A program made the translations under genes and the position numbers. A stretch of 43,766 bases of DNA from Candidatus Nomurabacteria bacterium (lineage in GTDB: Bacteria; Patescibacteriota; Minisyncoccia; Phycocordibacterales; UBA2100), in contig CALRFU010000007.1 of the NCBI GenBank assembly GCA_943356775.1, positions 1 through 43,766 of the forward strand. Reading direction: 5' to 3'. The notes beneath the pieces were generated by a model. It ran no database searches, had not been told where the DNA came from, and saw only the letters and a list, made by a program, of their open reading frames with translations. Shown piece after piece: positions 10,838-28,127 of the stretch. The first letter of the stretch is position 1; every line of letters starts with the position of its first letter.

Positions 10838-10878
10838 CGCGGCCATCCGCAACTTGATACAGTGCAACTGGAAACAAC

Positions 10879-11616: not shown

Positions 11617-12377
11617 ACTCAACACTGAAACAGCTTCTCCCGCCTATACTCGCACCGCTCGTGGGGCTTGCCCTCTGGACACTTATCGTTCGGGTGTTCT
11701 CGATTCCCTCCTACCTCCTCCCCTCGCCTCAAAGCGTGCTCACGTCGATAAGCACCTCCTACCCAACGCTCCTCTATCACGCGAGTATCACATTTGCAGA
11801 GGCCTTGGCAGGGTTCGTTTTATGTATCATTGTGGGCATACTATTTTCAATCTCGTTTCAACTCTGGCCCATTACTCGACAATCACTCTATCCGTACTTA
11901 GTGGCGACGAGAATAGCACCCATAATCGCCGTCGCTCCTTTTCTCTTGCTCTGGCTCGGAAACGGATTCTTCGCTAAGGCGGCCACGGCCGCCGTGGTCT
12001 CAACCTTCTTTATTGTTATAAATCTGACGAAGGGCTTCGATGAAGTAAGTAACGGTGCGCGAGAACTCTTGCGCTCACTTTCGGCAACTCGCTTCCAAAT
12101 ACTCATGAAACTCCAGATTCCTAATTCTGTTCCGTACTTTTTCTCAGGAATCAAGGCAGCGCTCGCAACGTCTATCGCAGGAGCGGTTGCAGCAGAATTT
12201 ATAAGCTCTAACTCAGGTCTGGGGCACCTCATACTTTCGAACTATTACTACTTTCGAACAGCCGAGATGTTTGGAGCGCTTCTCGTATTGATTGCGGGGG
12301 GCGTGCTCATCTTTGGAGCCATCTCCATGATTGAGCGCATCTTCTTTTCTCACTACAGTATGCGCCGAGAGTCGTAG
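11613..12377 (+). CDS. ABC transporter permease (SsuC/ThiX type)
   Basis: This 254-aa BPD_transp_1-type permease has about six TM helices. The cytoplasmic EAA-like coupling loop is recognisable at ELLRSLSATRFQILMKLQIPNSVPYFFSGI, followed by AAALATSIAGAVAAEF-like sequence typical of SsuC/TauC. It forms the membrane channel for the preceding binding protein and ATPase. Its start is coupled by ATGA overlap. It converges on the partner gene at 12385 with only 7 nt between stops. Confidence 0.92.
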   Translation: MNSTLKQLLPPILAPLVGLALWTLIVRVFSIPSYLLPSPQSVLTSISTSYPTLLYHASITFAEALAGFVLCIIVGILFSISFQLWPITRQSLYPYLVATRIAPIIAVAPFLLLWLGNGFFAKAATAAVVSTFFIVINLTKGFDEVSNGARELLRSLSATRFQILMKLQIPNSVPYFFSGIKAALATSIAGAVAAEFISSNSGLGHLILSNYYYFRTAEMFGALLVLIAGGVLIFGAISMIERIFFSHYSMRRES

Positions 12378-12384: not shown

Positions 12385-13149
12385 TTAGGATTTCTGAACG
12401 TTGATGGATTCGGATGGGATGCTCGTATCATAACGAAGTATCGGCGTGACCAATGACTGCTGTTTTGAAAGAACCAACGTCCCGCCGATGTTCTCAATGA
12501 TGCATCCGGGGAGCGGTACGAACACTTGCTCAGCCCCAAGGGTCGACTGAGCAAACGCTCCTGTCTCAGGAAGACTGAGTACGAGTCGTACATTCTTTAC
12601 GTATGGCAAAACCCATCGCATTCGCTCGCTTTGGAAGCGCGGACCGAGAATTGAGATGGATACGAGAGGCTCATGAGAATCCTCAAAAAAAGGACGGAGC
12701 CGTTCAAGTGATATTTCATCAGTAATCAGTGAATCAATTTGATATTTTCTTGCCATCGCAATCGCCACCACCTCGTTATGCACTTCTCCAATCAGAGGCA
12801 CCATTCCCCTCTCATAACACCACATGGACTTCTCTATACTTTCCGCGTTATCAGACAGATACACCATCGGTCGCTTCGTCTCAACGCCATATTCCTCTCG
12901 TGCCACATCTTCGTACGCCCATTCAGATACGAATGTCGTTGTCTCGTTTTTGACAATCTTCACCAAAGAACGAGCGGTCTTATGTCGACGCTCTGGGAGA
13001 GTGCACCCGAACAAGACCTCGCGCGTCATGACAGGCAACCGATTGAACACCCTTTCGATTCCCCAAAAATCTTGATAGATAGTCGACGAGTGACTCCTGC
13101 CTACATCCGCAACCAATTGCTGCACCGTATCGAGAACATTCTTATTCAT
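12385..13149 (-). CDS. Ligase partner protein 1: divergent ANL-like domain without P-loop
   Basis: This 254-aa protein is translated from an ATGA overlap with the upstream PaaK-like ligase. Its order of segments echoes the core of adenylate-forming enzymes: a substrate-side helix/strand region (VYLSDNAESIEKSMWCYERGMVPL), a SLITDE strand, a PGCIIENIGGTLVLS element and a final PILRYDTS similar to the RYRTGD region. The SSGTTGK-type P-loop and the C-terminal lid are absent. It is the most divergent of four partner proteins in the window. A regulatory or substrate-holding role with the ligase is inferred. Catalytic activity alone is unlikely. Confidence 0.6.
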   Translation of the reverse strand: MNKNVLDTVQQLVADVGRSHSSTIYQDFWGIERVFNRLPVMTREVLFGCTLPERRHKTARSLVKIVKNETTTFVSEWAYEDVAREEYGVETKRPMVYLSDNAESIEKSMWCYERGMVPLIGEVHNEVVAIAMARKYQIDSLITDEISLERLRPFFEDSHEPLVSISILGPRFQSERMRWVLPYVKNVRLVLSLPETGAFAQSTLGAEQVFVPLPGCIIENIGGTLVLSKQQSLVTPILRYDTSIPSESINVQKS

Positions 13150-14252
13150 ATATCGGTCCTTACGATTTTTATTTCTTTATGTTTGAGCGGAAACGGCGTA
13201 TGCGAAAACTCAACCGAAAGGGGTGAAAACTCGCCCGTATGTACAAGCTCTGCGAGCGTACGAGAAGGCGTAAGGTACAACTTCTTAGAAAATTCACGCT
13301 CTATTTGCGCCTGCAGCATGGGACTGTAGTGTCCATCCTTCCGAAATACTCGCAAAACCAATTTCCCCTGAAGCTTCCCTCCCGTGATGACCTGCGAGGC
13401 TTCTACTCGATAGTCATCAAAGAGTCCTATTTCCTTCGCTACCCGATCACATTCATCCCGTCTCACAAGCGCACCCGCAAGCTTTACATAGTCTCTCCCG
13501 CTTCGGCCCAGCAACTCGATGATTTGGGTCGCGCCACACCGACAGGCCCCTTTCTTCATTCTCCCTAAGTCTCCCGTACGATACTGCACGACATCGGGAC
13601 GTGCCTCCGGCGTGACGAGAATCTCTCCTACCCCATCTTCATCCGGGGTATCAATTTCAACAACCACCCCCTTATACGGATGGTAATGGTTGCGCGGTTG
13701 GAATCCACACGACACTTCAGAAATACGCCCGACTTCTAAAGCAATGTATCGACTCCTGAGGCTCGCATTGGGAAAGGTGTCGCGCAAGAGATTCTCCATG
13801 GCTTCAGTCATGCATTCTCCACTCAAAATGAGAGTCTTTACACCCAAGGCTGTCTTTTTGTCGATGTGCTCGGCAACGCGAACAACAAACGAGACAAAGC
13901 CCAGAATACTGTCGGGAGCATAGTCGGCCAATATCGCCCCCAAGCCTTGGTTCAAGTCCGCGCCATCCAATACGAGAGACCGCGACTCCGCCGGCATTCC
14001 GTGTCTCGCCTGTAAATTGTACGCAAGTCGTGTTGCCGAGGCTCCCAAACAAATAACCGGAGCATGGAGTTTCGCAAAACGTTTAACAGACTCAGGCTGG
14101 TACTGTAATATCGCACCGATGAGGTGCCCCCCTGTCGTCCCTGACGTGACGCGGACGCAATAACGCCAAGCATCTTCTTTTGAGGGAGGAGCTGATCTAA
14201 ATTGGTCGAATGTTTTCTCGGCTATTACGCTGTATCCGGCACGGTCGAGCAT
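13146..14252 (-). CDS. PaaK-like adenylate-forming ligase 1 (shortened N-terminus)
   Basis: This 368-aa phenylacetate-CoA-ligase/F390-synthetase-like enzyme would activate a carboxylate with ATP as acyl-AMP. Motif A3 is TSGTTGG (residues 36-42), RYRTGDLG-like YRTGDLGRM and CRCG follow in the C-terminal third, and GRSGRDYVKLAG marks the lid hinge. Compared with the other three ligases it lacks about 40 N-terminal residues and the MHWHE-type insert. It is followed by partner 1 with ATGA overlap. ATG 14252 lies 7 nt after TATAGT. The divergent region beyond holds the SCGG peptide at 14312. Substrate is unknown. Confidence 0.8.
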   Translation of the reverse strand: MLDRAGYSVIAEKTFDQFRSAPPSKEDAWRYCVRVTSGTTGGHLIGAILQYQPESVKRFAKLHAPVICLGASATRLAYNLQARHGMPAESRSLVLDGADLNQGLGAILADYAPDSILGFVSFVVRVAEHIDKKTALGVKTLILSGECMTEAMENLLRDTFPNASLRSRYIALEVGRISEVSCGFQPRNHYHPYKGVVVEIDTPDEDGVGEILVTPEARPDVVQYRTGDLGRMKKGACRCGATQIIELLGRSGRDYVKLAGALVRRDECDRVAKEIGLFDDYRVEASQVITGGKLQGKLVLRVFRKDGHYSPMLQAQIEREFSKKLYLTPSRTLAELVHTGEFSPLSVEFSHTPFPLKHKEIKIVRTDI

Positions 14253-14259
14253 ACGAGAG

Positions 14260-14265
14260 ACTATA
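14260..14265 (-). promoter_or_regulatory. -10 box of ligase 1, leaderless type
   Basis: TATAGT on the minus strand lies 7 nt before ATG 14252, allowing ligase 1 and partner 1 to be expressed separately from the peptide upstream. Confidence 0.5.
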
Positions 14266-14311
14266 GACCGAGTAAGGCGAGTTTACTACCCTTCTTTTTT
14301 CTGTATTGGGT

Positions 14312-14530
14312 TTATTGGATAAAACCACCACAGCTCACGAAAAGCAATTGATTCTCATTTTCTTGTGACGCTCCTGCGCTCGCATTGCTTGATATGTCCA
14401 CGCATTGATCAGGTGCTTGCGCAATCAAACCCTTGTCGGGTGTTGTAACAAACTCCGTAGATATATATATGCCTAATAAGGAAAGGACGAAGCCAGCTGA
14501 ATAGAGGGCGTAGGTATGCAATTTTTTCAT
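14312..14530 (-). CDS. Short anchored peptide precursor ending SCGGFIQ
   Basis: The 72-aa product has a basic N-terminus (MKKLHTY), one hydrophobic helix (about residues 8-26), a Ser/Asn/Gln-rich spacer with one Cys (QCVDISS), and the end LLFVSCGGFIQ. The charge pattern predicts an extracytoplasmic C-terminus, where the two Cys could pair. The family is not known to me, but the end is shared with the peptides at 25951 and 26244. It lies 59 nt upstream of ligase 1 on the same strand. ATG 14530 was chosen over the upstream start (14575), since it follows GGAAAG and starts the anchor. Confidence 0.72.
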   Translation of the reverse strand: MKKLHTYALYSAGFVLSLLGIYISTEFVTTPDKGLIAQAPDQCVDISSNASAGASQENENQLLFVSCGGFIQ

Positions 14531-14626
14531 ACTTTCCAGTACATAAATTGTAGCAACAACCCACGCAACAATCAATTCGCTCTCGTTTACATCTCATATA
14601 TACTCGATATACGCTTTTTTATTTCT

Positions 14627-15436
14627 ATGGCCGTGCATCGCTCACATACCTCCACACGAAACCCTGAGGATGCGTACCGGGGATTTGGCATTGAACCTAT
14701 CGCCGAGGGAGAGGAGACTTCTCGTGAGATTCTGTTGCATCTACTACAAAAAGCAGAACATAATTTCAAGAACGTGGCGTGCGGCCTCGTACCAACATCC
14801 TTCGACCCGCACGACCCGCTCCTTACCGCATTTCCGCGCCCACTGCAGTGGAAGTGGCCAGCGCTGCAGCGCTATCTCCAGACACTTCAAAGCGCCTCCG
14901 TGATGATGCTCCTACCTCAGTTTTGGCAAATGCAATCCTGCATCCATCGCGAATGCCATGATGTCGCAGCTCTGCTTTTCATAGCAGATATAGCGAACAC
15001 GCCGATTGCTGCTGCCGCGACCGAATCTCTCTCTATCGATACAGTCATTACCAGCACGCAAGACTGCAGCGAACTTCTTGATTATCTTTCTGAAAAAGAG
15101 ATGCCAGCACCACGCTCTTGGGTATTCGTACACGATGCAAATAAACCGACACCCCACATACCGGAAAATCTGAGGGAAACCCACTCCGTCGTTCAAGAAA
15201 TCCACATCTTCCCCTGCGTACCTATATTTGAACAGTGCGGCTCACTGATACAACGGCACTCAAACCGATTCCACACATCCGAAGCATACGTATGGGAATT
15301 CAAGGACGACCGTACTCTCATAACCAGTGCTAGGGAGGACCCTCTGCCGCTCCTCAAATACAGACTCCCCTTCACGGCAATCCAGACCGATATGTGTCCG
15401 TGTGGGAAAGTTGAGGTTGAATACCATCATGAATAA
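14627..15436 (+). CDS. Ligase partner protein 2: ANL-like domain without P-loop
   Basis: This 269-aa protein belongs with those at 20723 and 22597. Shared features are LVPTSFDPHDP near residue 60, a W-x-W shortly after, a VMM-x-LPQFWQMQ block, a NTPIAAAA segment, SWVFVHDA, QEIHIFPCVP and a terminal CPCGK. The last element and order match the N-terminal core of PaaK-type ligases (C-x-CG after RTGD), but no SSGTSGK loop or lid is present. It carries an extra 40-residue N-terminal part. It overlaps ligase 2 by 8 nt, so the two are made together. A TATACT box is at 14599-14604. It is likely a pseudo-enzyme partner. Confidence 0.68.
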   Translation: MAVHRSHTSTRNPEDAYRGFGIEPIAEGEETSREILLHLLQKAEHNFKNVACGLVPTSFDPHDPLLTAFPRPLQWKWPALQRYLQTLQSASVMMLLPQFWQMQSCIHRECHDVAALLFIADIANTPIAAAATESLSIDTVITSTQDCSELLDYLSEKEMPAPRSWVFVHDANKPTPHIPENLRETHSVVQEIHIFPCVPIFEQCGSLIQRHSNRFHTSEAYVWEFKDDRTLITSAREDPLPLLKYRLPFTAIQTDMCPCGKVEVEYHHE

Positions 15437-16718
15437 TTTCGAGAAATTGAAAGAGCTCGTTGCCGACTGCACTGCACCCACTGCACCGCGTATGTATCGC
15501 GCCCTCTATGGGATGCGAGACGATGAACCTGCCATCCAGTTGGGCGGATGGGATGAATGGAGGGCATTGCCCATGATGAATAAAAATACGCTCGTTGAAA
15601 CACCGTTTGCCGACCGATTCTTTGCATCGCATTCTGACATCGAAGACATACGCACCTCTTCCGGAACGAGCGGCAAGAAACCGCCGTTCATACCACGCGT
15701 TTTCCCGCGTGGTCTTGAATATCGCCTCCAATACCACTCTTTCAAAAATCCGATACTTGCATTCAAGGTCCCCTACATGATGCACTGGCATGAAGAGCTG
15801 CAGCAATCCTTGGGGTATGCTCCACGCGTTGTTGCTTTTGACCCCGTCCACGCAGAGGCATCTATTCGCTTGGCAAGAATCGCGGGAGTAGACGCAATCA
15901 TTACTTTTGCCTTCCATATACCCCTCATCGGTACGTTGATGTCTCGAGAGGGCATGACAGAGAACATTCGACTGATTGAAATCAATGGAGAAAATTGCAC
16001 GCGGTCACTTTTTAACTTTATGAGAGCGACGTTCCCGAACGCGGTCATCCTGCCTCAATTCGGCGCAGCAGAAGTCGAGGACAAACCACTTGGCGTTCCC
16101 TGTAGGGCAATTACGGGAGAAGAACCCCTATCGGTCTATCACGCAAAAGACACTCAGTACCATGAGGTTATTGATTCGGACACATTAGAAGTCCTGCCCT
16201 ATCAAGCAGGGAGTGAGGGCGAACTCGTTGTTACCTCGCACGTACCAAAACCGCGAGCGACTCCGCTTATACGATATCGCACGGGTGATATCGTCAAAAT
16301 CCTGCCCGAAAAATGTGCTGCTCATAATCAGCTTCAGTTTACGATAATAGGTCGGGTATCAATCGATTTCGTGAAAATCCCCGGTGGAGTATTGCGCGCC
16401 GACGAAATGGAACGCGTCCTACTCGCGATTGACAATGACATCTCAGATCGATTTGAAATTCATCGATATGTACACAATCACGAAGCCGGTCCAAAAATCG
16501 GAATGGTTGTGCATATAACTTCGCGAACGGGGCGCAATCTCGATATGGAACACATCGCCCGCGACATCTCCAACCATTTTCGCGTCGGACCCAAAAGGAC
16601 ATACGCGCAAGGCGTGCAAAGCGGTATGTACGTTCCGCTTTCTTGCGCTCTTCTTGTAAATTCAAGCCATACGGAAAAAATGAAGCGCATCATCGTTCAC
16701 GAGCCCGAGAAATCGTGA
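15429..16718 (+). CDS. PaaK-like adenylate-forming ligase 2
   Basis: This 429-aa member of the PaaK/LuxE/F390-synthetase branch has an N-terminal W-x2-LP-x3-K element (WRALPMMNK, residues 45-51), A3 loop SSGTSGK (77-83), A7 RYRTGD near 281-286 and the lid hinge GRVSIDFVKIPGGVLRADE, followed by a ferredoxin-like C-terminal lid. A5 is FGAAEVED, deviating from the canonical YGxTE. An MHWHEE insert shared with ligases 3 and 4 may form the substrate pocket or bind metal. It should adenylate a carboxylate in the cytoplasm. The substrate may be the SCGG peptides (inference). Its ATG is embedded in the partner 2 stop region. Confidence 0.82.
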   Translation: MNNFEKLKELVADCTAPTAPRMYRALYGMRDDEPAIQLGGWDEWRALPMMNKNTLVETPFADRFFASHSDIEDIRTSSGTSGKKPPFIPRVFPRGLEYRLQYHSFKNPILAFKVPYMMHWHEELQQSLGYAPRVVAFDPVHAEASIRLARIAGVDAIITFAFHIPLIGTLMSREGMTENIRLIEINGENCTRSLFNFMRATFPNAVILPQFGAAEVEDKPLGVPCRAITGEEPLSVYHAKDTQYHEVIDSDTLEVLPYQAGSEGELVVTSHVPKPRATPLIRYRTGDIVKILPEKCAAHNQLQFTIIGRVSIDFVKIPGGVLRADEMERVLLAIDNDISDRFEIHRYVHNHEAGPKIGMVVHITSRTGRNLDMEHIARDISNHFRVGPKRTYAQGVQSGMYVPLSCALLVNSSHTEKMKRIIVHEPEKS

Positions 16719-16731
16719 GAGGGGTTTTCTA

Positions 16732-19512
16732 TCACCGCTCGATTACCGTAATCTCACGATTAATCTCTACATTGTGTATCTCGGTAGTAATACCGGATGG
16801 CCACCGCACCCTTACCTGAACAATGCTGTCGGACGGGAGTGACCCCAATCCGAATATGACGCGCGAACTATTTTGTGAATAGAAACTACTGCCCGCCAAT
16901 ATCGGCTTGACTTGAGTCGAGGTTCCCGTAATCACTGATATTTCCGCGCCGATGCCATAAGAATTACTCTTCGTCCCCTGCAGTCGCACCTTAAGGTAGG
17001 ATGCCTTCGCATGATTTACGTAGAGAATATCAGGGCTCATACCACTCGCGCCGAGCAATATGTTGCCGACAAATACATCGGGAGTACCGTTGTTATCGAA
17101 GTCCGAGACCGCAACAGCTCTGCCACTTTGAGAATCGGGACAGAACGCACCCCACGTGACATCAACAAATGTGCCGTCTCCCTGATTCTCATATAAACGG
17201 TCCGCGCGATAGAGTGTACGGCTCAATGAACTATCTGTGCTTGCCATAATGCGCGGCACATCACCATTGGCGATGAAAATATCCTGCCGTCCGTCGAGAT
17301 TATAATCGAGAAAAGAAACTCCCCACCCGAGACCATGTGCCGCGAGCGTCTGGTCCGAGAGTTCATACGTACCACTTCCCGTCGATGAGAAAAGGTAATC
17401 ACGCAGCACATTCGTCGTAACAATGTCCGATGCACCATCGCCATTGAGGTCTCCGACATCTACACCCATGCCACTACCCGCGTAGTCAATACCAGCATCC
17501 GCGGTAACGTCCGTAAACGTAAAGTCACCCGTATTTTTTAATAGGAGATTGCCTCCCCAACCAGTCGCTATAAACACATCTTGTCTCTCGTCTCCGTCGT
17601 AGTCGAAAGAGACCGGCTGAAAGAAGTGTCGAGAAATCTGATCATAAGGATGCTCAAGATGGCGAATATCGTATGTGTACGAACGCCCAGCACCTAATGC
17701 CTTTTGTTCAAAATCCTCATGCTCAACAAAGGCGCGACCGCCTTTATTTTCAAAAAGATGCATGGACCCTGGCATGAACCAGAGAGCATCGACGGGGGCA
17801 CCAAAATGCGGTACCGGTAATTGAAACTTACTGAAAGATACCAATTGAAGCGAATCATTCACAATGAGACAACCTCCTGCGTTTATAAATCGCTCTACCT
17901 CAGGTGATGTACCGTAGGCACGAGCGCCAAACGAAGCATAGACGGAACGTGCTTCCTCTTTGTCACATATGAGGCGGGTCACATCGTCAAATCGTGGATC
18001 GAAAAGTGATTTCAGCATGGCCGGGTTTGTTTTCGCTACGGGATACACAAGACCGCCCGTTACAAACACAACGTCAAGAAGACCGTCATTGTTGTAATCG
18101 CCCAGTGAAAAGGCTGCGCCGGTGTAATTACGCACGCTCATATCCCCAAGACCGAGACGTTCCGTCACATCAGTGAATATACTGTTCGTGTTATTACGAT
18201 AGACACGAAAGGCTTGTGATTCATCTTGAGCACGCTGCAAAGGAGAGCGATTTAGTACAGCGTAATTCGGGACATATGCGACAAAGAGATCGAGTCGGCC
18301 ATCATCATCGTAGTCAGCGAACACGGCACTTGCGGAACTCTTGCCTGGGAGTCCAACTGTGGCAGTCACATCTCTAAATGTGCCGTCTCCGTTATTGCGA
18401 TAAAGAGTGCTCGGTCCGGCGAGATTCGATACAAACAAATCGTCATATCCATCAGCATCATAATCACTCCATGCAGCTCCTGAGGTATAGGTATCGGGAG
18501 CAAACTCCGCTGTCTGTGAGGACTGAAGAACTTGCCCGGAACCGCATTGCAAGATACGAGGGCTTTCAATTCCCCGCAGAAGAAAATCGGGCGATATACG
18601 GAATCCTTGTATAACCGCGGCTCCAGGGAACGCACACAGAGCGACGATGAACAACGCGGTACACGCAGTCATGAATGAGAACGCATTCGAGTAATTTCCA
18701 ATCCAAGGGATGCGACGGACAAAAGTCATGAACTCTACTCGCGAGAGTATATTTACGAGCGTTATGAGAAAAGCGGCCAAAAAGATCGAATATCGTACGC
18801 CGGATATTTCAAGTGCAAAGAGAAGAAGGGCAATTGATATGCCGTGAATGATGCGTTCGCGAAATATGCTTGGGGAGGTCTTCGGGTCCGTAATCATGAA
18901 CGACGCAAATAAAATTAAGGAGGGGCCGAGAAGGCCGTAGTGATGCACAGAGACAACGTCCGGATAAAAGGAGAGGAGCCCCAACAACAACACAAGGTAC
19001 GAAGTCAGAAATGACGTGGTTGTGACCAATACGCCTGACCGATACGCAACGAATAAAATCGCGGCATCGATAAGAAGATACTCATACACGTTGCCGCCCC
19101 ACTGCGTGAATTCAATCGTGGTCGACGCCGGAAATAGGAGGACAAAGAATACGATGGCGATGTTGGACGCATTGAATAATTGCCCACGTGCCGATGTCCG
19201 GATGACGTGTCTCGATAGCACCGCCGCACATCCCGCGAGAGCGAAAAAGAGAGGATTCGATGCGCGAAAGAAAATCGCGATGCCCAATGCGCTGGCAATC
19301 ACTCCCCTTGGAAAATAGATTGACCGCGTGAGGGCAAACTCAGTAGCGACACCCGCCATAAGCGCCAATGCGACATCTGTCCACGTGACGTTGAACCCCC
19401 AGTGAGTGATGCCGATTACGACAAATATTGCTTGCAAGACGATGAGCAAAGAAACGGGCTCAAGAGCCTTCTGCAATGTATCCGAATGCCTCCATCGTTC
19501 AATATAATTCAT
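16732..19512 (-). CDS. NqrB/RnfD-like membrane domain fused to FG-GAP/ASPIC (CRTAC1-like) repeats
   Basis: This is a 926-aa fusion. Residues about 20-310 contain 10-11 TM helices with NqrB/RnfD-like signatures (NASNIAIV; LGPSLILFASFMITDPKTSPS), as in electron-transport subunits that carry FMN. The remainder is extracytoplasmic: seven FG-GAP/VCBS calcium loops such as DYDADGYDD, DLNGDGASD and DFDNNGTPD, then an ASPIC/UnbV module (SNSYGIGAEI, FGLGSL, RWPSGI). The FMN-threonine motif SGAT was not found. ATG 19512 was chosen over TTG 19545, because it follows the upstream stop by 4 nt. It is cotranscribed with the Cys/His-family gene at 19517, suggesting a joint surface redox role. Confidence 0.8.
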   Translation of the reverse strand: MNYIERWRHSDTLQKALEPVSLLIVLQAIFVVIGITHWGFNVTWTDVALALMAGVATEFALTRSIYFPRGVIASALGIAIFFRASNPLFFALAGCAAVLSRHVIRTSARGQLFNASNIAIVFFVLLFPASTTIEFTQWGGNVYEYLLIDAAILFVAYRSGVLVTTTSFLTSYLVLLLGLLSFYPDVVSVHHYGLLGPSLILFASFMITDPKTSPSIFRERIIHGISIALLLFALEISGVRYSIFLAAFLITLVNILSRVEFMTFVRRIPWIGNYSNAFSFMTACTALFIVALCAFPGAAVIQGFRISPDFLLRGIESPRILQCGSGQVLQSSQTAEFAPDTYTSGAAWSDYDADGYDDLFVSNLAGPSTLYRNNGDGTFRDVTATVGLPGKSSASAVFADYDDDGRLDLFVAYVPNYAVLNRSPLQRAQDESQAFRVYRNNTNSIFTDVTERLGLGDMSVRNYTGAAFSLGDYNNDGLLDVVFVTGGLVYPVAKTNPAMLKSLFDPRFDDVTRLICDKEEARSVYASFGARAYGTSPEVERFINAGGCLIVNDSLQLVSFSKFQLPVPHFGAPVDALWFMPGSMHLFENKGGRAFVEHEDFEQKALGAGRSYTYDIRHLEHPYDQISRHFFQPVSFDYDGDERQDVFIATGWGGNLLLKNTGDFTFTDVTADAGIDYAGSGMGVDVGDLNGDGASDIVTTNVLRDYLFSSTGSGTYELSDQTLAAHGLGWGVSFLDYNLDGRQDIFIANGDVPRIMASTDSSLSRTLYRADRLYENQGDGTFVDVTWGAFCPDSQSGRAVAVSDFDNNGTPDVFVGNILLGASGMSPDILYVNHAKASYLKVRLQGTKSNSYGIGAEISVITGTSTQVKPILAGSSFYSQNSSRVIFGLGSLPSDSIVQVRVRWPSGITTEIHNVEINREITVIER

Positions 19513-19516
19513 AGAA

Positions 19517-20617
19517 TTAAATGGCAGGTATGGGGAGCCGGTCAATGAGACCTAAATCTGTTTTTGATTGGGTGACACAGTACTCAGTAGCTGCAGTTGA
19601 AAAATCGGCATTGCGACACATACGGGCAAACCCATCCACTTGCCCCATCCTCAGCCGCGTCATAATGCCCGTTGCGCAAAAAAGTCTGCTGAGTGAATCT
19701 GCAGTTGCTTTCTTACAAAATTCATATGAACTATCTTGATTCAGGTTTCCAGACACGGTGGCAACGTGACCTATTCCCTCATAACAAGCTCGCCTCTTGA
19801 ATACATCGGTGACCTTGTCACAAGATGTACCCATACGATTGAACAACTCTCGATCCTCTGTAGCGTCGCCCTGAGCACTCCACCACCACCATATCGGCAG
19901 TTCGTAATAGCATGAATTTTGAGCGGCATCGCCAAGCTCCATACAGGGACCGAGAATTGTGTCGGGAGTGACCGGTCGAGAAACGGGCTGCCCCTCTGGC
20001 CCGCTGTCAGTAAGAAATCGCAAGTTATATTCCATTATCGCGCCCTCAGCACAGCCTCCTCGACGTTCCTGCTGCAACGATGCACACATGGACAGAGACT
20101 CCCTGAGCTCAGGAAGGCTGTAACCAAAATATCCTACCAGCCCGTGACCAATACTATGCAGGCATGGATTATTATTCCCCTTGCGATCACCTTGGCACGC
20201 CTTATTCATTTCTTGCACAACTCCGAGTCCCTGCTGAAGGATAGCCGAACCGATGACCTGATGAGTACAGCCCCCAAAGTAATCCTCGGTGCACAACACA
20301 ATTCCGCCCGGACCTTTTGTATTGTATAAGGCTTCACCAAAAGCGTGTGCCAGTATATGCGATGCGTTTATCGGAAGAGCGTCGCCGGACTTTTTATATT
20401 CGGCATACGCCCGCTCGTACCCAAAGGTATTAATCTCTCCCGTCCAGTACATCGTTGCAAGCTTGAAATCAATGCCGCCGTTTTTCAAATACGATGATTG
20501 CGGAGAACGAGCTAGCCACAGAATCAAGAGGAGCGTACCCATGAGAAGAACGACACCGATAAGCAATGTCACGTTGGTTCGCCTCAACATACGGAACATA
20601 TACAATACCTGCGTCAT
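19517..20617 (-). CDS. Cys/His-rich anchored protein, type A, copy 1
   Basis: This 366-aa protein has one N-terminal TM (about residues 15-35) and a Cys/His-rich ectodomain. Family motifs in order are HILAH (H-x3-H), GCTHQ in place of the usual GCYHG, CLHSIGHG in place of C-x-HG-x-GHG, GCAEGAIMEYN, a Trp run (IWWWW) and paired Cys to the end. The family is not recognised by me. The many Cys suggest disulfides outside the cytoplasm, and the five His could hold a metal. It sits 4 nt upstream of the NqrB/RnfD-ASPIC gene. ATG 20590, preceded by TATATG at 6 nt, is an alternative start. Confidence 0.75.
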   Translation of the reverse strand: MTQVLYMFRMLRRTNVTLLIGVVLLMGTLLLILWLARSPQSSYLKNGGIDFKLATMYWTGEINTFGYERAYAEYKKSGDALPINASHILAHAFGEALYNTKGPGGIVLCTEDYFGGCTHQVIGSAILQQGLGVVQEMNKACQGDRKGNNNPCLHSIGHGLVGYFGYSLPELRESLSMCASLQQERRGGCAEGAIMEYNLRFLTDSGPEGQPVSRPVTPDTILGPCMELGDAAQNSCYYELPIWWWWSAQGDATEDRELFNRMGTSCDKVTDVFKRRACYEGIGHVATVSGNLNQDSSYEFCKKATADSLSRLFCATGIMTRLRMGQVDGFARMCRNADFSTAATEYCVTQSKTDLGLIDRLPIPAI

Positions 20618-20710
20618 CCGTCACCCCTGAGGAGAGTTGGAATAACTTCGCATTGAGCCAAGTATACATATTTTCTGTTCGTACGCGCAATCAATGAATA
20701 TTCAATTTGC

Positions 20711-20716
20711 TATACT
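20711..20716 (+). promoter_or_regulatory. -10 box of partner protein 3, leaderless type
   Basis: TATACT lies 6 nt before ATG 20723. Confidence 0.6.
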
Positions 20717-20722
20717 CTCCCG

Positions 20723-21430
20723 ATGACGCACACCGAGCTGATTGCAGAGTTAGAGCAGTTCTCTGCAGCCAACAAATCGCCTGCAAACAAAATCGTCCCG
20801 ACCTCATTTGATCCAACCGACCCGACATTACGGGGCTTTCCCATACCGCTCGACTGGAGATGGACATCGTGCGAGCAATCCCTCAGCTCATTCCATGCGG
20901 TGGGAGTCATGATGCGGTTGCCGCTCTTCTGGCAATTGGAAGTACCCCTCTTCCATGCGTGCAAAAATTCCGGTGCTTTTATTTTCGTGAGCGACAGAGG
21001 TAATATGCCGCTGGCAGCCGAGGCAATCCGCACGGCACAGATAGATTGCGTCGTCACCGACGCAGAAGACGCGCAAACTTTTTCCGATTTCTTAGTTGAA
21101 AAATCTGCATTGAAGCCTCGGTCATGGATTATCGTCCATCGAGCAACGGTGCCTGATACAGCTCTGTTGAATGGGCTGGGGGCTGTCGGAGCCCAGGAAG
21201 TACATATATTCCCTGGCGTGCCCGCCCTCGTGCAATGCGAGGTATTACGTTCCCTGGATACACCCTTATTTCATGTTCACCCAGACCTAAAGTGGGATGC
21301 AAAATCAAATACCGTGACGTCGTGTATCGAAATTCCAGTTCCGCTGCAAAATTATCCTCTTCCGTTCACAATAAAAGAAATCCGTACCTGCGAATGTGGT
21401 CAGGCGGTCGTAGCAAGTGCGACGTTATAA
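20723..21430 (+). CDS. Ligase partner protein 3: ANL-like domain without P-loop
   Basis: This 235-aa protein carries the partner hallmarks: VPTSFDPTDPTLRGFPIPLDWRW, VMMRLPLFWQLEVPL, NMPLAAEA, SWIIVHRA, QEVHIFPGVP and a terminal CECGQ. It is closest to partner 4 (22597), with long shared blocks, so the two look like a duplication. Unlike partners 2 and 4 it is not followed by a ligase. The next gene is the DctP-like protein on the other strand, so it must act in trans or its ligase was lost. It has no signal peptide or P-loop and is probably cytoplasmic. Confidence 0.68.
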   Translation: MTHTELIAELEQFSAANKSPANKIVPTSFDPTDPTLRGFPIPLDWRWTSCEQSLSSFHAVGVMMRLPLFWQLEVPLFHACKNSGAFIFVSDRGNMPLAAEAIRTAQIDCVVTDAEDAQTFSDFLVEKSALKPRSWIIVHRATVPDTALLNGLGAVGAQEVHIFPGVPALVQCEVLRSLDTPLFHVHPDLKWDAKSNTVTSCIEIPVPLQNYPLPFTIKEIRTCECGQAVVASATL

Positions 21431-21436
21431 CGAGAG

Positions 21437-22474
21437 TTACTTTGAAAACTGTGCCCCGTACGTGGACTCAAATTCCGTATATACTTTGCGCGTAGCATCT
21501 TGCATCATTTGTTTGTCCGGCGCCGTGAATATAGATACTACAGTGCCGTTCGCCGTGAGAGCAGCCTTGGTCTGCTCACCAAGCGATGCAGAATCCTCTC
21601 TTTCTACTTTCGCTGCGACAAGAGCCGCCTCGCGCAACGCTTTCTGGTCAGCGGCCGAGAGTGAGGCGTAGAATGAGTCGCTGGCGAGAATCACCGTCAA
21701 GAAAAGGCTGTGGTACGTCTCTGCGATATTCTCGGTGTACGAATTGTCCGAACCGAGCACCGCAGACAGACGGCTGTACGTCGTCTCCACTGCATCAATA
21801 GAATTTTCATCGATATCTCGCGCGGCACTTTCCAGGTCTGTCGGTACCGGTATGGCACCGAGCGCAGAGAGGGTCGCCTGAGCGACCGGCCCACCGGACG
21901 TGGCAATGCGCTTACCTTTTAAATCAGCTGAGGTTTTTATCGGAGATTTTGAGGCGATGATTCGGAATCCCCCGCTCATGGTGAAGGCGAGGGCGTGTGT
22001 ATCGGTGGTCGATTCGACAGTGTCGAGGAGCTTCATCCCGGTTGCACCATCCAATATCTGCCCTGCTGAAACATAGTCGGAGAAGCGGAACGGTAAATTC
22101 AGGCTCCACAATGCAGGGTCGTCTTGACCTAATCCTACGGTATACGTGGTGGCAAGCTCCACGCGTGCATTGGCAAGATACTCTAGTACATCAGCGTTTG
22201 GAATGTCACCCGTATCAGAATATCCGAGCTCTTGGGGATTCACTACGTCCAAAGTAAGTCGGCCCTCGGTACGTTCCGAAAGTTCTTGAGCAAAAACCGC
22301 GGCAGCACGAGTAAAAACATCAGTCGGCTGATGCGAAATCAGCCAGCGAACGTGGCGAACCTCCGATGATGCCTTTGATGCAAGCACGTAGTGAAATGTG
22401 GCAAGCACCCCAATCGCAATCACAGCAACGAAAAGAAAGAAACGCACCCGTCCAGACTTACGCGCGTTCAACAT
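21437..22474 (-). CDS. TRAP-type substrate-binding protein (DctP-like), orphan
   Basis: This 345-aa protein has an N-terminal TM anchor (residues about 10-30, basic ahead of it). The DctP fold is marked by LSERTEGRLTLDVVNPQELGY, LNLPFRFSDY, FTMSGGFRIIASKSPIKTSADLKGKRI and ALGAIPVPTDL. In typical DctP proteins the strand after DLKGxKI starts with the carboxylate-binding Arg. Here the position reads Ala (KRIATSGG), so the ligand may differ. No DctQ or DctM gene is in the window. ATG 22474 was chosen because TAGAGT lies 7 nt upstream and the anchor then begins the protein. Longer starts overlap the divergent gene. Confidence 0.82.
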   Translation of the reverse strand: MLNARKSGRVRFFLFVAVIAIGVLATFHYVLASKASSEVRHVRWLISHQPTDVFTRAAAVFAQELSERTEGRLTLDVVNPQELGYSDTGDIPNADVLEYLANARVELATTYTVGLGQDDPALWSLNLPFRFSDYVSAGQILDGATGMKLLDTVESTTDTHALAFTMSGGFRIIASKSPIKTSADLKGKRIATSGGPVAQATLSALGAIPVPTDLESAARDIDENSIDAVETTYSRLSAVLGSDNSYTENIAETYHSLFLTVILASDSFYASLSAADQKALREAALVAAKVEREDSASLGEQTKAALTANGTVVSIFTAPDKQMMQDATRKVYTEFESTYGAQFSK

Positions 22475-22481
22475 TACACAA

Positions 22482-22487
22482 ACTCTA
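22482..22487 (-). promoter_or_regulatory. -10 box of the DctP-like gene, leaderless type
   Basis: TAGAGT on the minus strand lies 7 nt before ATG 22474. Confidence 0.45.
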
Positions 22488-22582
22488 GCATCAGGTGAGG
22501 ACACGTCAAGACTCGTGATGCAAAATATAATCCGAGGATTACAGTCAGATACGCGAGAATGACAGGGTCGGTTAGTTTTTGT

Positions 22583-22588
22583 TACTAT
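22583..22588 (+). promoter_or_regulatory. -10 box of the partner 4/ligase 3 operon, leaderless type
   Basis: TACTAT lies 8 nt before ATG 22597. TGACA about 18 nt upstream could be the -35. Confidence 0.55.
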
Positions 22589-22596
22589 TGAGATAC

Positions 22597-23295
22597 ATGA
22601 TTGCATCAGGACAAATTCGGGCAATTCAAGATACTCTGAAATCTGTACCGTGCCGGATTATCCCGACTTCATTTGAAGCAGAAGATGTAAATCTAGTCGG
22701 CTTTCCCCTCCATCCCCTCTCCCGCTGGGATTCCTGCGCACAAGCGCTTTCGGAGTTCAAATCGCATGGGGTCATGATGCGGCTTCCCCTGTTCTGGCAA
22801 CTCGAAGTCCTTTTATGGTACGCCTGTAGAACGGTACCGGCTCCCATTTTTCTAAATGATCCCGAAAATATGCCCGTCGGTGCTGCGGCACTTCAGCTGG
22901 GGGGTATGGATACGGTAGTAACAGAGCAACGTGACGCAGGGATATTCGCTGAGTATGTTCAAAAAGAAAATGAAGTAGTTCCCAAAAATTGGATTATAGT
23001 CCATCGTGCAGACGACACTTGGAGCGTGCCTACCTCGCTCTCGGATTGCAAGGTGGCGCAGGAGGTTCACCTTTTCCCCGGTCTGCCTATATTGTCACAA
23101 TGCCCCGCCCTCATGACGGAAATCTCAGGTACACCGCGCTTCCACATAGCTCAAGGGAACCGATTTGAACCCAGCGCGAATACATTCGAGACTCCATCGA
23201 AAGATGCTGTGCCTTCATTCACATTAGACATACCCCGAATCACCGCAGGTGGGATGTGCGTCTGCGGGGACCTCATATACACACAGGCTCTATGA
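22597..23295 (+). CDS. Ligase partner protein 4: ANL-like domain without P-loop
   Basis: This 232-aa protein shows IIPTSFEAEDVNLVGFPLHPL, VMMRLPLFWQLEVLLW, NMPVGAAA, NWIIVHRA, QEVHLFPGLP and a terminal CVCGD, the same order as partners 2 and 3. The blocks resemble the N-terminal subdomain of PaaK-type enzymes, but the nucleotide loop is missing. The stop overlaps the ligase 3 start in ATGA, so subunits are made in step and probably form a complex. ATG 22597 was chosen over TTG 22579, since the -10 box lies between them. Confidence 0.7.
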   Translation: MIASGQIRAIQDTLKSVPCRIIPTSFEAEDVNLVGFPLHPLSRWDSCAQALSEFKSHGVMMRLPLFWQLEVLLWYACRTVPAPIFLNDPENMPVGAAALQLGGMDTVVTEQRDAGIFAEYVQKENEVVPKNWIIVHRADDTWSVPTSLSDCKVAQEVHLFPGLPILSQCPALMTEISGTPRFHIAQGNRFEPSANTFETPSKDAVPSFTLDIPRITAGGMCVCGDLIYTQAL

Positions 23296-24566
23296 GTACA
23301 TTCGATGATCTCTCGGCACTCGTTGAGCGAGTAACGTCTCAAGATGCTCCCGCGCTGTACAGGCGACACTACGGGATAGATTCAGATTCGGGCCCACTTC
23401 GTATTGCTGATTGGAATTCGTGGCAATCCCTTCCCTTTATTGATAAAGCAATCCTGCAGAACATCCCCATAGAGGAGCGCGTATTTATCGAGTGGGGGGA
23501 CATTAACTCCATTCACGCTTCGTCAGGAACATCGGGCAGACCACCACACTTCAGCCCCTGGGTACGACTCGACGGATATGAATATCGGACGCGATTTCAC
23601 ACGTTTACACGACCGGCTCTGTGCTCAATGCCAATTCATCATCAACACGAGAAATTCCTCGACGAATTCAACGTGAATCCGAAGCTTATTGTGTTTGACC
23701 CCAGGCGGGCGCGAGCTTCGGTAGAGCTCGCTCGTCTCGCGGGTATAGATTCACTTTTTATCTTCACCGGACATCTCACGCTCATAGGTCCCGAAGTAGA
23801 GCGACTTGGCATGGGTGCAGACATTCGCTTTATCGAACTCGCAGGCGAATCTTGCTCACGCTCTCTGTATAATTATGCGAAACGAGTCTTCCCGAATTCT
23901 GTGATTGTCTCATTTTATGGAGCAACTGAGGTCGAAAATCCTCCCATCACCTATCCATGCCGGCCACTTTCGGATGCAGAACCTCTCGAGGTACATCATC
24001 CGCGAGACGGGTATTACATAGAATTAATTCATCCCGATACACGCGAACTATTGCCGATACAATCCGGTACTGAGGGAGAAATTGTCATCACCGCCGACAT
24101 CACCAGGCCTAGCCTACAAGCAGTATCGCCACTGGTTCGATATCGAACAGGAGATATGGCACGCGTTTTCGAAGAGAAATGTTCCACGCATAATAATTGG
24201 TCCTTCACTATGCCAGGACGCGTGGCTATGGATTTTATAAAAATCCCTGGGGGAGTTCTGCGGGCAGAAGAGATTGAGCGAGTGCTCCGTAGTCTCGGCG
24301 AAAACGTAAGTGATATATTCGAATTGCACTTTAAAGAAATCGAGGATGCGGGAACGGTAAAAATCAGTATCACTCTGTATCTTGAAACAACGGGTGCGAC
24401 CGATTTGGAGAATCTCGCAAGACAAGTAGAGCGCAGCACCCGCGTTGGAGCCGCATTCACCTACGCCGACGGGATTGCGCGCGGTATGTACCTTCCTATC
24501 ACCTGTGTCCCATTCAAACCCGCCTACCGTGGCAAGCGAAAGCGAATGATACGTAACGGCTCATAG
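23292..24566 (+). CDS. PaaK-like adenylate-forming ligase 3
   Basis: This 424-aa ligase has WQSLPFIDK near residues 44-52, A3 loop SSGTSGR (77-83), the full A5 motif YGATEVEN (about 208-215, the only one of the four ligases that keeps YGxTE), A7 RYRTGDMARV and hinge GRVAMDFIKIPGGVLRAEE, then the lid domain. A 'HHQHEKF' segment stands where ligases 2 and 4 have MHWHE or PHWHE. This is the best-preserved catalytic copy. It is coupled to partner 4. The reaction is expected to be carboxylate plus ATP to acyl-AMP, then transfer to a thiol or amine. The acceptor is unknown. Confidence 0.84.
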   Translation: MSTFDDLSALVERVTSQDAPALYRRHYGIDSDSGPLRIADWNSWQSLPFIDKAILQNIPIEERVFIEWGDINSIHASSGTSGRPPHFSPWVRLDGYEYRTRFHTFTRPALCSMPIHHQHEKFLDEFNVNPKLIVFDPRRARASVELARLAGIDSLFIFTGHLTLIGPEVERLGMGADIRFIELAGESCSRSLYNYAKRVFPNSVIVSFYGATEVENPPITYPCRPLSDAEPLEVHHPRDGYYIELIHPDTRELLPIQSGTEGEIVITADITRPSLQAVSPLVRYRTGDMARVFEEKCSTHNNWSFTMPGRVAMDFIKIPGGVLRAEEIERVLRSLGENVSDIFELHFKEIEDAGTVKISITLYLETTGATDLENLARQVERSTRVGAAFTYADGIARGMYLPITCVPFKPAYRGKRKRMIRNGS

Positions 24567-24611
24567 TGTACGAGACGTCGCGAATTAAGGTTGGCCACAA
24601 AGCCTCCGTGA

Positions 24612-24617
24612 TACTAT
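24612..24617 (+). promoter_or_regulatory. -10 box of ligase 4, leaderless type
   Basis: TACTAT lies 7 nt before ATG 24625 and gives ligase 4 its own promoter. Confidence 0.5.
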
Positions 24618-24624
24618 ATTCGTG

Positions 24625-25884
24625 ATGCAATTCAGAGATGCGGCAGAGGTTGTGACGTACGTCACCGGAGAGACCCGCAGCATATTTTATAGAGAATTGT
24701 ACGGCTTGCGCCCTGAAAATTCTGCTCTTCGCATAGAGTCGAAAGAACAGTGGGAAGCACTTCCTTTTCTTACAAAAACCGACCTGTTGGCAAAATCGCT
24801 TGCAGAACGAAGTTTCATTCCCCTTTCGGAAATTGACCATTTGCGAGTGTCCTCGGGCACGAGCGGAAAAGGGGTGCTCTTCTCTCCGCGTACGCACGTT
24901 CGCAACATGGACTACCGTCTCAAGTATCACACCTTTGAGAACGCGTTCATGGCTTTTACGACACCCATGATGCCTCACTGGCATGAGCTGTTCCAAAAAG
25001 AACACGGCCACCTCCCACGCGTTATAGCGTACGACCCCGCAAACCCCGTCGCCTCAGTTCGATTGGCACAGTCGGCGGGCGTCGACGGGATGTCCGTATT
25101 TATTTTCCACATCACCGCCATTGGCGAAGAAATGAAACGGCTCGGCTTTGCGCAACACATACGCCTTCTTGAGGTGACGGGCGAGATGTGCACCCGAGCA
25201 CAGTTTGAATATATGCGTGACACATTTCCACACGCGACTATTGTTCAGTCTTATAATTCGAGCGAGGTCGAAGATGCGCATATCGGGATACCCTGTCGTC
25301 CGATAACAGGAGAAGAGCCTCTTGCTGTCTATCATCCGAAAGAGACTCACTATCTTGAAATCGTGAATCCCGAGACGGGCGCTTTGGTAGAACCCAAGGC
25401 CGGAGCGGAGGGTGATTTGGCGATAACAGCATACGCGGGTGAACCATCAGCATTTCCTCTCATTCGTTTTCGCATTGGCGATACCGTTCGTGTCGTCGAA
25501 GAACAGTGTCCTCACGGCTCATGGTCATTTACTGTTCTGGGACGGACTGAAATGGACTTCCTTAAAATCCCTGGCGGGGTACTGCGTGCTGACGAAATTG
25601 AGCGCGTACTTCGCACGATGCCCAGCGAAGTCTCTGACCGATTTGAAATATATTGCTCCGAAAAGGCAACCTCGAAGGGGCCTCTCCTCTCTCCCTTACT
25701 CCGCGTCGAACTCAAAAAATCGACTGATTTATCTGCATTGGCGACACGTATATCTCAAGCGCTGCGGGTCTCCGCCCGCATGACCTACGCTGATGGGGTT
25801 GCGGAAGGGAGGTATGCGGCGATTATATGCGAGGCCTTTCAACCATCCCTCGGTGCAAAGACAAAGCGCATTATCCACTCCTAA
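24625..25884 (+). CDS. PaaK-like adenylate-forming ligase 4
   Basis: This 419-aa ligase has WEALPFLTK (43-51), A3 loop SSGTSGK (76-82), the PHWHELFQ insert, a degenerate A5 YNSSEVED, A7 RFRIGD (Thr replaced by Ile) and hinge GRTEMDFLKIPGGVLRADE. It is closest to ligase 2. It has no partner gene directly upstream. Two SCGG peptide genes follow on the same strand, 66 nt downstream. Start is ATG 24625, with GTG 24622 immediately before it as a less likely choice. Loss of the canonical A5 and A7 residues could mean altered nucleotide or acyl handling. Confidence 0.82.
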   Translation: MQFRDAAEVVTYVTGETRSIFYRELYGLRPENSALRIESKEQWEALPFLTKTDLLAKSLAERSFIPLSEIDHLRVSSGTSGKGVLFSPRTHVRNMDYRLKYHTFENAFMAFTTPMMPHWHELFQKEHGHLPRVIAYDPANPVASVRLAQSAGVDGMSVFIFHITAIGEEMKRLGFAQHIRLLEVTGEMCTRAQFEYMRDTFPHATIVQSYNSSEVEDAHIGIPCRPITGEEPLAVYHPKETHYLEIVNPETGALVEPKAGAEGDLAITAYAGEPSAFPLIRFRIGDTVRVVEEQCPHGSWSFTVLGRTEMDFLKIPGGVLRADEIERVLRTMPSEVSDRFEIYCSEKATSKGPLLSPLLRVELKKSTDLSALATRISQALRVSARMTYADGVAEGRYAAIICEAFQPSLGAKTKRIIHS

Positions 25885-25937
25885 CTCGTCACTATGGGAT
25901 TCTACACACAGGAATGCATGAACAATTGAGAGTGGTG

Positions 25938-25943
25938 TATAAT
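25938..25943 (+). promoter_or_regulatory. -10 box of peptide gene 25951, leaderless type
   Basis: Consensus TATAAT lies 7 nt before ATG 25951, the best -10 match in the window. It suggests strong expression of the peptide relative to the ligases. Confidence 0.65.
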
Positions 25944-25950
25944 TTAACCG

Positions 25951-26178
25951 ATGCAGATATATAAGCGTCTGAAGCGTATAGGCTTGTTTGCTGCCGGCTG
26001 CACACTCGGAAGCTTGGCTGTCTTTACGTTCCAGAATGGCGGAACCGTATACATAACAGACCGCTTAGGTATGGAGGCGGGTAGTCAGTATGAAGGCGGG
26101 CACGAAGCGAATGCGTGTACTCCGACTTCACAAGAGAACGATAGCGTCTTCTTTGTCAGTTGTGGCGGTATATATTAA
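25951..26178 (+). CDS. Short anchored peptide precursor ending SCGGIY
   Basis: The 75-aa product has a basic N-terminus (MQIYKRLKRIG), one TM helix (about 11-28), a Gly-rich spacer and the end ACTPTSQENDSVFFVSCGGIY. It shares ACTP-x2-Q then [VF]-[YF]-FVSCGG with the peptide at 26244, and FVSCGG with 14312. The two Cys are 14 residues apart and, if outside the cell, could form a loop. The strong leaderless promoter suggests abundant product. It could be a ligase substrate, a signal peptide or a surface peptide. No known family was recognised. Confidence 0.78.
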   Translation: MQIYKRLKRIGLFAAGCTLGSLAVFTFQNGGTVYITDRLGMEAGSQYEGGHEANACTPTSQENDSVFFVSCGGIY

Positions 26179-26228
26179 TTTTGTTTTGCTGTGCGACCAT
26201 ATTCAATTGACACCCCTACCCCTACCGA

Positions 26229-26234
26229 TATACT
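26229..26234 (+). promoter_or_regulatory. -10 box of peptide gene 26244, leaderless type
   Basis: TATACT lies 9 nt before ATG 26244. Confidence 0.55.
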
Positions 26235-26243
26235 TCACCGTAT

Positions 26244-26453
26244 ATGGAACGCCTCCGTCTGACACCGACCGTCATCGCGTCGATAATCGCAACGCTCATC
26301 GTTGTTGCCTCTCTCACGAGCTCTCAGATTTTTAAATTTCTCAGCTCACACAGTATCTCCCTAAAATCAAAGACAGGTACGGTGGCGTCGGCCTGCACGC
26401 CAAGCACTCAAAGCGAAAAGGTATATTTTGTAAGCTGCGGCGGGACATTTTAA
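26244..26453 (+). CDS. Short anchored peptide precursor ending SCGGTF
   Basis: The 69-aa product starts MERLRLTPTVIASIIATLIVV and has a single TM helix (about 8-28), a basic/polar spacer and the end ACTPSTQSEKVYFVSCGGTF. It is clearly related to the 25951 peptide by its C-terminal 20 residues, while anchors and spacers differ. Selection thus acts on the tail. The two Cys are 13 residues apart. The first large tandem paralogue starts 7 nt downstream, so peptide and large protein probably share a transcript. Confidence 0.78.
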   Translation: MERLRLTPTVIASIIATLIVVASLTSSQIFKFLSSHSISLKSKTGTVASACTPSTQSEKVYFVSCGGTF

Positions 26454-28119: not shown

Positions 28120-28127
28120 TACGAAAT

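Follow-up and report, generated by a model that had tools for sequence, protein, structure and literature searches.

A conserved four-part system of PaaK-like ligases, ligase-like partners, Cys-Gly-Gly-tailed peptides and S540 proteins in Patescibacteria

Results

Genes of the system in the window

The stretch analysed here (the window) is 43,766 nucleotides long and constitutes contig CALRFU010000007.1 (C7) of assembly GCA_943356775.1, a Candidatus Nomurabacteria bacterium genome of 811 kb that is 98% complete. Among named assemblies in the public genome collection, those of Candidatus Kaiserbacteria come nearest to this genome, which is thus a Patescibacterium of Kaiserbacteria type. In this window, PaaK-like ligases, ligase-like partners that lack the P-loop, short peptides with a conserved Cys-Gly-Gly tail and a family of larger proteins that we call S540 lie together, and the four form one conserved system. 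Genomes are designated G and loci L, each followed by a number; the genus comparison set consists of 52 genomes, and all genomes are metagenome-assembled, some of them fragmented. The genes of the system in the window are as follows.

8181–8360, + strand: p4, tailed peptide; tail ...IYFANCGDFY; seven Lys/Arg past the hydrophobic stretch; tail probably cytosolic
8366–9832, - strand: S540 member of the cytosolic branch, without membrane helix; convergent with p4; TTG start uncertain
12385–13149, - strand: PartB1, P-loop-less ligase-like partner; overlaps LigB1 by 4 nucleotides
13146–14252, - strand: LigB1, class B PaaK-like ligase of 368 residues; N-terminal YRxxY segment missing
14312–14530, - strand: pepB1, class B tailed peptide; tail ...LLFVSCGGFIQ, 5 residues past the Cys
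14627–15436, + strand: PartA2, P-loop-less partner; reading frame open from 14516, likely start 14627
15429–16718, + strand: LigA2, class A ligase; overlaps PartA2 by 8 nucleotides
20723–21430, + strand: PartA3, P-loop-less partner
22594–23295, + strand: PartA4, P-loop-less partner; AlphaFold2 (AF2) model resembles PaaK1
23292–24566, + strand: LigA4, class A ligase; overlaps PartA4 by 4 nucleotides; G010 ortholog 79% identical
24622–25884, + strand: LigA5, class A ligase
25951–26178, + strand: pepA5, class A tailed peptide; N-in membrane anchor; tail ...ACTPTSQENDSVFFVSCGGIY, 4 residues past the Cys (C-terminus reads ...FFVSCGGIY)
26244–26453, + strand: pepA6, class A tailed peptide; tail ...YFVSCGGTF
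26461–28044, + strand: S540 member; membrane-anchored, predicted exoplasmic, four conserved Cys
28128–29771, + strand: S540 member; AF2 model with predicted local distance difference test (pLDDT) score of 90, without structural match
29768–31390, + strand: S540 member

A preliminary description of this DNA had placed the system at 12385–26453, and every gene that it named lies where it put it. Three of the peptides end in FVSCGG plus two or three residues and the fourth (8181–8360) ends in FANCGDFY, while the three partner–ligase pairs overlap at 13146–13149, 23292–23295 and 15429–15436. The contents of that interval stand; its limits were too narrow, since the S540 genes at 8366–9832 and 26461–31390 belong to the system too. 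S540, the fourth part, had gone unnoticed.

Ligases and their P-loop-less partners

By sequence, the ligases are members of the PaaK-like branch of the ANL superfamily. More specifically, those of the window match PaaK-type NCBIfam profiles and fall near PaaK, F390 synthetase and DVU_1553-type ligases, with scores of at most 61 bits against equivalog cut-offs of 300–700. Phenylacetate-CoA ligase proper was rejected because the scores are far under every equivalog cut-off. A profile of 18 ligases, searched against the PDB, retrieved the PaaK structures 4r1l (7.6e-29), 9s3l (1.6e-25) and 2y27 (1.6e-23). In the alignment of these 18 ligases, the residues required to form an adenylate, namely the SGT P-loop, the YGxxE glutamate, the RTGD aspartate, the GR arginine and a C-terminal lysine, are invariant (18/18). 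A distant ligase in L089 (2464–3674) appears to be split by a frameshift.

The partners are homologous to the N-domain of the ligases (hhalign 97.5%, E=7.8e-12). A confident model of one of them (PartA4, AF2, pLDDT 91) has PaaK1 as its top Foldseek match (E=5.4e-5, TMq 0.60). Because both the P-loop and the entire C-terminal domain are missing from the partners (the motif is absent in the alignment), we regard them as catalytically dead twins of the ligases. Taken together, the profile, PDB, hhalign and Foldseek matches bear out the earlier proposal of PaaK-like ligases accompanied by P-loop-less, ligase-like partners.

Tailed peptides

We collected 33 tailed peptides from 15 genomes. A typical peptide comprises one hydrophobic helix, a variable stretch that often contains A-x-A-C, a few hydrophobic residues and the C-G-G tail. 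The tail Cys is invariant (33/33) and is directly followed by Gly-Gly in most peptides. No short open reading frame ended in the tail motif in 150 windows simulated with the trinucleotide composition of the real one, which has three; given this result and the conservation across 33 peptides and 15 genomes, the motif is not due to chance.

The distance between the Cys and the C-terminus is equally constrained. With search patterns that permitted 2 to 8 residues, all 33 peptides end either 4 (19 peptides, class A) or 5 residues (14 peptides, class B) past the Cys. The last residue is mostly Phe or Tyr in class A, with one Asp, and Glu, Asp, Gln or Ser in class B.

Several further features of these small proteins were recorded. 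In many exoplasmic peptides (window, L022, L024, L026, L032, L061 and L073), A-x-A immediately precedes the first Cys; the site resembles that of signal peptidase I, and cleavage there would free a two-cysteine peptide of about 20 residues. In L092 (1996–4612), a different small membrane protein ending in ...SKTGCGG lies between two paralogous alpha/alpha-type proteins with weak C5-epimerase/GH88 matches; a second divergent ligase adjoins, and this perhaps represents a third tail class. A small protein ending in ...NSGGC is encoded upstream of the frameshift-split ligase (L089, 1309–1566).

The S540 family

S540 proteins are about 440–590 residues long. The family gave no match to Pfam (one member scanned), nothing better than E=0.12 among PDB sequences and nothing better than E=0.65 when a model was searched with Foldseek; a second structural comparison (VIA) returned weak matches to unrelated helical proteins, with Z at most 6.7. 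The S540 fold may be new, the model being confident, and an absent match is no demonstration of novelty. Four Cys are conserved in the membrane-anchored members and missing from the members without a membrane helix, as expected if these residues form disulfides outside the cell. The L089 member is an exception, being membrane-anchored yet having lost some of the four.

Co-occurrence of the four parts

A profile search found S540 in 8 of the 52 genus genomes. To these we compared a profile of the peptide tail (23 residues; significance at E<1e-5), which matches the same eight genomes (Fisher 1.3e-9) and gives no match in the other 44, where the best value is E=0.04. The 22 significant tail matches all belonged to the training set of the profile, and the absence in 44 genomes is for that reason the informative half of this test. 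SCGG peptides are thus not widespread in genus genomes that lack S540 (0/44).

A class-wide search using the S540 profile alone identified six genomes from other families, and each of them encodes a ligase no more than a few kb away and a tailed peptide. The tails read ELFVNCAGFLE, NLFISCGGFLE, HFFVSCGGFIS, VLFAGCGGFF, YLFVGCNGFF, KLFISCGGFIE and NCFSVGCSGIF; the first six were flagged by pattern or profile (ELFVNCAGFLE weakly, E=0.24) and the last was found by inspection. In Candidatus Lloydbacteria (L073) the gene order is conserved as DctP-type binding protein, partner, ligase, peptide, S540, S540; another tail in this locus, LFVSCFGFLE, adjoins a second ligase. Within the genus, the ortholog of pepA6 in G010 has an identical tail and adjoins an orthologous ligase and S540.

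At the level of individual genes, each of the 33 ligases in the loci read has a tailed peptide at most 4.2 kb away, and for 20 of them the distance is at most 100 bp; the L029 ligase, for example, has its peptide at L029 19488, 2.6 kb away. Co-occurrence and ligase–peptide proximity therefore agree with the preliminary description in treating peptides, ligases and partners as one real system, and neither of the two findings that it had named as fatal to its proposal was made.

Tail class follows the ligase and membrane side follows S540

We then placed the two tail classes on the ligase and S540 trees, peptides in crowded arrays being assigned to ligases by adjacency or orthology. On the ligase tree, tail class is a single change on one branch (SH-aLRT 100), and none of 500 shuffles was as low. 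On the S540 tree it needs 5 changes against a shuffled mean of 6.2, no better than shuffled labels. Both tail classes coexist, each with its own ligase class, in G000, G003, G026, G061 and Lloydbacteria; since the two sit together in one genome, tail class does not reflect lineage. The classes of the partners coincide with those of the ligases.

A second rule concerns topology, which was predicted from hydropathy and charge. The membrane side of the tail follows the S540 type. Four S540s without a helix (window 8366, L030, L088 and L092) adjoin peptides whose tails are probably cytosolic: the peptides in L030 and L092 have no membrane helix, and the other two carry more positive residues after than before the helix (7/1 for the window peptide at 8181, 7/2 for that of L088). 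Such a strongly positive flank after the helix predicts a cytosolic tail. One change on the S540 tree accounts for the no-helix state. As cytosolic-tail peptides pair with no-helix S540s, the system appears to work on either side of the membrane. The preliminary description had noted a tension, in that three peptides have tails predicted to lie outside the membrane and any ATP-dependent step would need to come before export; the cytosolic versions answer it in part, and most tails are still predicted to be exoplasmic.

Neighbouring genes

Three further features of the window are associated with transport.

7031–8008, - strand: TctC-type solute-binding protein; associated, and found in island loci of 7 genomes
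9824–12377, + strand: complete NMT1-type ABC importer (binding protein, ATPase, permease); associated
21437–22624, - strand: DctP-type solute-binding protein; start uncertain

DctP, missed in the preliminary description, is found in 7 of the 8 system genomes and in none of the other 44, and a TRAP permease is found in none of the 52 genus genomes. A PartA3-type partner adjoins DctP and a LigA5-type ligase in G003 and G061. Like the window, L088 and L091 have a complete NMT1 ABC importer next to the system, and TctC and SSS transporters recur near it, the type of transporter varying by locus. A second orphan DctP (L074, 1319–2392; G000 contig 11) has a DoxX-like gene and a transposase in its vicinity and is accompanied by neither ligase nor peptide.

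Candidate enzymes were also seen. A radical SAM protein (L093, 10687–11715), a UbiD decarboxylase (L092, 11417–12394) and a thiamine pyrophosphate (TPP)-dependent enzyme (L090, 1851–3461) lie near distant systems and might serve in tailoring or substrate supply. In G003 (L022, 4338–7818), AcpS, a DltC-like carrier, a DltA-like ligase and an MBOAT protein without FXYXXF tail form an insertion in the island, with a class B peptide on one side and an S540 gene on the other, AcpS and DltC having been named by eye. G003 is the only one of the eight system genomes with an MBOAT protein; G000 has none and gave no match to a carrier protein. In G022, which is without the system, an MBOAT protein ending in FIYFQF is followed by a probable SGNH-type gene (L075, 8609–11180), which looks like a classic acyl-shuttle pair.

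The window also contains a multi-copy, membrane-anchored Cys/His-repeat family (19517–20617 and 31420–43628; C.YGFYHGF..C.HGIGHG), one copy of which is fused to a cupredoxin; the repeat part gave no Pfam match in the copies scanned. As a core part, the family at 31420–43628 was rejected because 11 of the 19 genomes (of 52) in which it occurs lack the system. The product of 16732–19545 is a fusion of an FG-GAP/ASPIC-UnbV protein with a polytopic, RnfD/NqrB-like membrane domain, and the island loci of G010 and G061 encode homologs. A polytopic Wzy-like/TPR protein (2476–4377) and a small anchored protein (4885–5340) flank the island in seven genomes, and a similar polytopic TPR protein occurs in the distant locus L087.

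Discussion

What the ligase may act on

Because the class of a carboxylate-activating enzyme dictates the exact end of the peptide, the ligase would, most simply, act on that end. We tentatively favour, at clearly less than an even chance for the explanation as a whole, that the ligase acts on the C-terminal tail and closes a thiolactone, and that S540 meets the tail. Its parts differ in strength. The peptide is probably a covalent substrate. The activated group may well be the C-terminal carboxylate of the peptide, a proposal that falls a little short of even chances. That the product is a thiolactone is possible and carries considerable doubt.

More specifically, the ligase would adenylate the C-terminal carboxylate (of Phe or Tyr in class A; of Glu, Asp, Gln or Ser in class B), with the partner as a recognition or regulatory subunit. 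In the second half-reaction the thiol of the invariant tail Cys would replace CoA and close a C-terminal thiolactone, giving a five-residue, 16-membered ring in class A (Cys+4) and a six-residue ring in class B (Cys+5). For exoplasmic tails, closure would have to take place in the cytosol, before or during membrane insertion. The modified tail would then meet S540, on whichever membrane face it occupies, to be bound, displayed or read; a small ligand that the adjacent solute-binding proteins handle might also be involved. There is precedent for both the chemistry and the ring size: GrcB, a ThiF-type enzyme, makes a thiolactone on a ribosomal peptide via carboxylate adenylation (PMC12250964), and the rings of staphylococcal autoinducing peptides (AIPs) comprise five residues (PMC10482373). 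In its fullest form, an ANL ligase and its dead twin would close an AIP-sized thiolactone that is shown on either membrane face to S540 and diversified in multi-copy arrays; we hold this form as a doubtful conjecture.

Several observations weigh against thiolactone closure. The ligase is cytosolic and most tails are predicted to be exoplasmic. The L032 peptide ends in CGGID within class A, so that the C-terminus is not always aromatic, and LigA2 of the window has no adjacent peptide of its own class. Since ligase and partner classes coincide, the two are inseparable as the reader of the tail. To our knowledge, no ANL-type enzyme cyclises a ribosomal peptide. Finally, the recurrent carboxylate-type binding proteins and importers hint at a small acid, which thiolactone closure does not need.

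Alternative explanations

This last point leads to the main rival, a form of which the preliminary description also raised and which we judge unlikely on balance. Here the ligase would activate a small carboxylic acid delivered by the neighbouring binding proteins and importers and load it as a thioester onto the tail Cys, in a manner comparable to acyl-protein ligases or to the attachment of a cofactor, the C-terminus would merely be a recognition handle for ligase and partner, and S540 would use the loaded tail. The usual substrates of PaaK-family enzymes are small acids. The distribution of DctP (7/8 system genomes, 0/44 others) without a TRAP permease, the recurring NMT1, TctC and SSS transporters, the UbiD and TPP enzymes found nearby in single loci, and the invariant Cys all fit this idea. 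By itself it leaves the exact Cys-to-C-terminus spacing and the class-specific last residue unexplained; moreover, no conserved biosynthetic enzyme names an acid, and the transporters vary in type from locus to locus.

A non-covalent role for the peptide is rather improbable in our estimate. The ligase would convert an imported acid into an acyl-CoA or acyl-AMP that serves metabolism or signalling; the peptide would dock on or regulate the ligase, tethering ligase and S540 at the membrane through a tail that acts as a binding motif. Binding would equally make tail class track ligase clade, importers lie nearby, and the full catalytic set of the ligase is silent on what is activated. On the other hand, nothing would require a buried binding motif to retain an invariant Cys with Gly-Gly, and after insertion the exoplasmic tails would be out of reach of a cytosolic ligase.

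The dlt-like cluster within the G003 island led us to consider an acyl shuttle as well. The peptide would then behave like DltX: its Cys motif would bring an acyl group through the membrane, and S540 would receive it, either as an acyltransferase or as the acceptor. DltX itself is a membrane microprotein that ends in a hydrophobic FXYXXF motif (PMC12148441), and the G003 cluster does sit beside S540. Its MBOAT protein, as noted, is without the FXYXXF tail. A DltX-type shuttle was set aside as very unlikely because none of the seven system genomes besides G003 encodes an MBOAT protein and we saw no convincing FXYXXF microprotein; in addition, no carrier match was found in G000, cytosolic versions of the peptide need no transmembrane shuttle, and neither Foldseek nor VIA found a known SGNH-like fold for S540.

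We consider it barely credible that, as the preliminary description suggested, trimming of the peptides to ...CGG exposes a -GG carboxylate, which is then activated for use in conjugation or sulfur transfer as in ThiS, MoaD or ubiquitin-like proteins: Gly-Gly follows the Cys in most peptides and the L092 small protein does end in ...TGCGG, but the residues after CGG are kept in 33/33 peptides, with a class-specific number (4 or 5 after the Cys) and chemistry, and ThiS and MoaD are activated by E1/ThiF enzymes, not by ANL ligases.

Significance

The system joins four protein families, three of them unnamed, in Patescibacteria, a group in which few accessory systems are understood. Should the ligase modify the tail, the ANL superfamily would offer a new way of making peptide macrocycles or acyl-peptides, with an inherent specificity code of two classes; if the thiolactone is true, AIP-like chemistry would be performed by an unrelated enzyme in a lineage thought to live mostly in attachment to other microbes or in dependence on them. 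The orphan solute-binding proteins, which have no permease, also gain a context.

Comparison with known systems

Open-literature searches (Patescibacteria/Kaiserbacteria with phenylacetate ligases; orphan binding proteins), with subscription papers outside their scope, found no description of the system, which we consider previously undescribed and of a new category. With the PaaK-like ANL ligases (phenylacetate-CoA ligase, F390 synthetase, DVU_1553) the ligase shares the fold, P-loop, RTGD and GR motifs and C-terminal Lys. Unlike these enzymes, it is co-encoded with a pseudo-ligase partner and a tailed peptide, and its clade tracks the ending of that peptide.

The ubiquitin-like carriers ThiS and MoaD share a near-terminal Gly-Gly and an adenylating enzyme. 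In our peptides, by contrast, Gly-Gly is not terminal (2–3 residues follow), the peptides are too short for a beta-grasp fold, and the enzyme is ANL rather than E1. The DltX/PatA acyl-shuttle motif likewise involves a small membrane protein with a hydrophobic C-terminal motif around a nucleophile (PMC12148441). The present motif differs in having an invariant Cys and not the Tyr found there, in the lack of MBOAT and carrier proteins in most genomes and in the existence of cytosolic versions.

With agr (AgrD/AgrB) the system shares a membrane-attached precursor, and the class A spacing of Cys+4 equals the five-residue AIP ring (PMC10482373), the ring being putative here. AgrB (PF04647) is found in none of the 52 genus genomes, and there is no charged C-terminal tail of 14–15 residues to cleave, as 33/33 peptides end 4 or 5 residues past the Cys; an agr system was rejected for lack of AgrB and of a C-terminal extension. 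Ring closure would, in addition, be ATP-driven by the ligase, and class B has Cys+5.

ATP-driven carboxylate adenylation of a ribosomal peptide, proposed here, is the reaction of the ThiF-like cyclases GrcB, EnfB, IndF and MccB, which act on ribosomally synthesized and post-translationally modified peptides (RiPPs) (PMC12250964, PMC12150305). In contrast to those systems, the enzyme beside the peptides is ANL and not ThiF/E1, the peptide is membrane-anchored and accompanied by S540, and no RRE domain or leader was seen. If the thiolactone is true, the system would thus resemble RiPP macrocyclisation with a new enzyme class.

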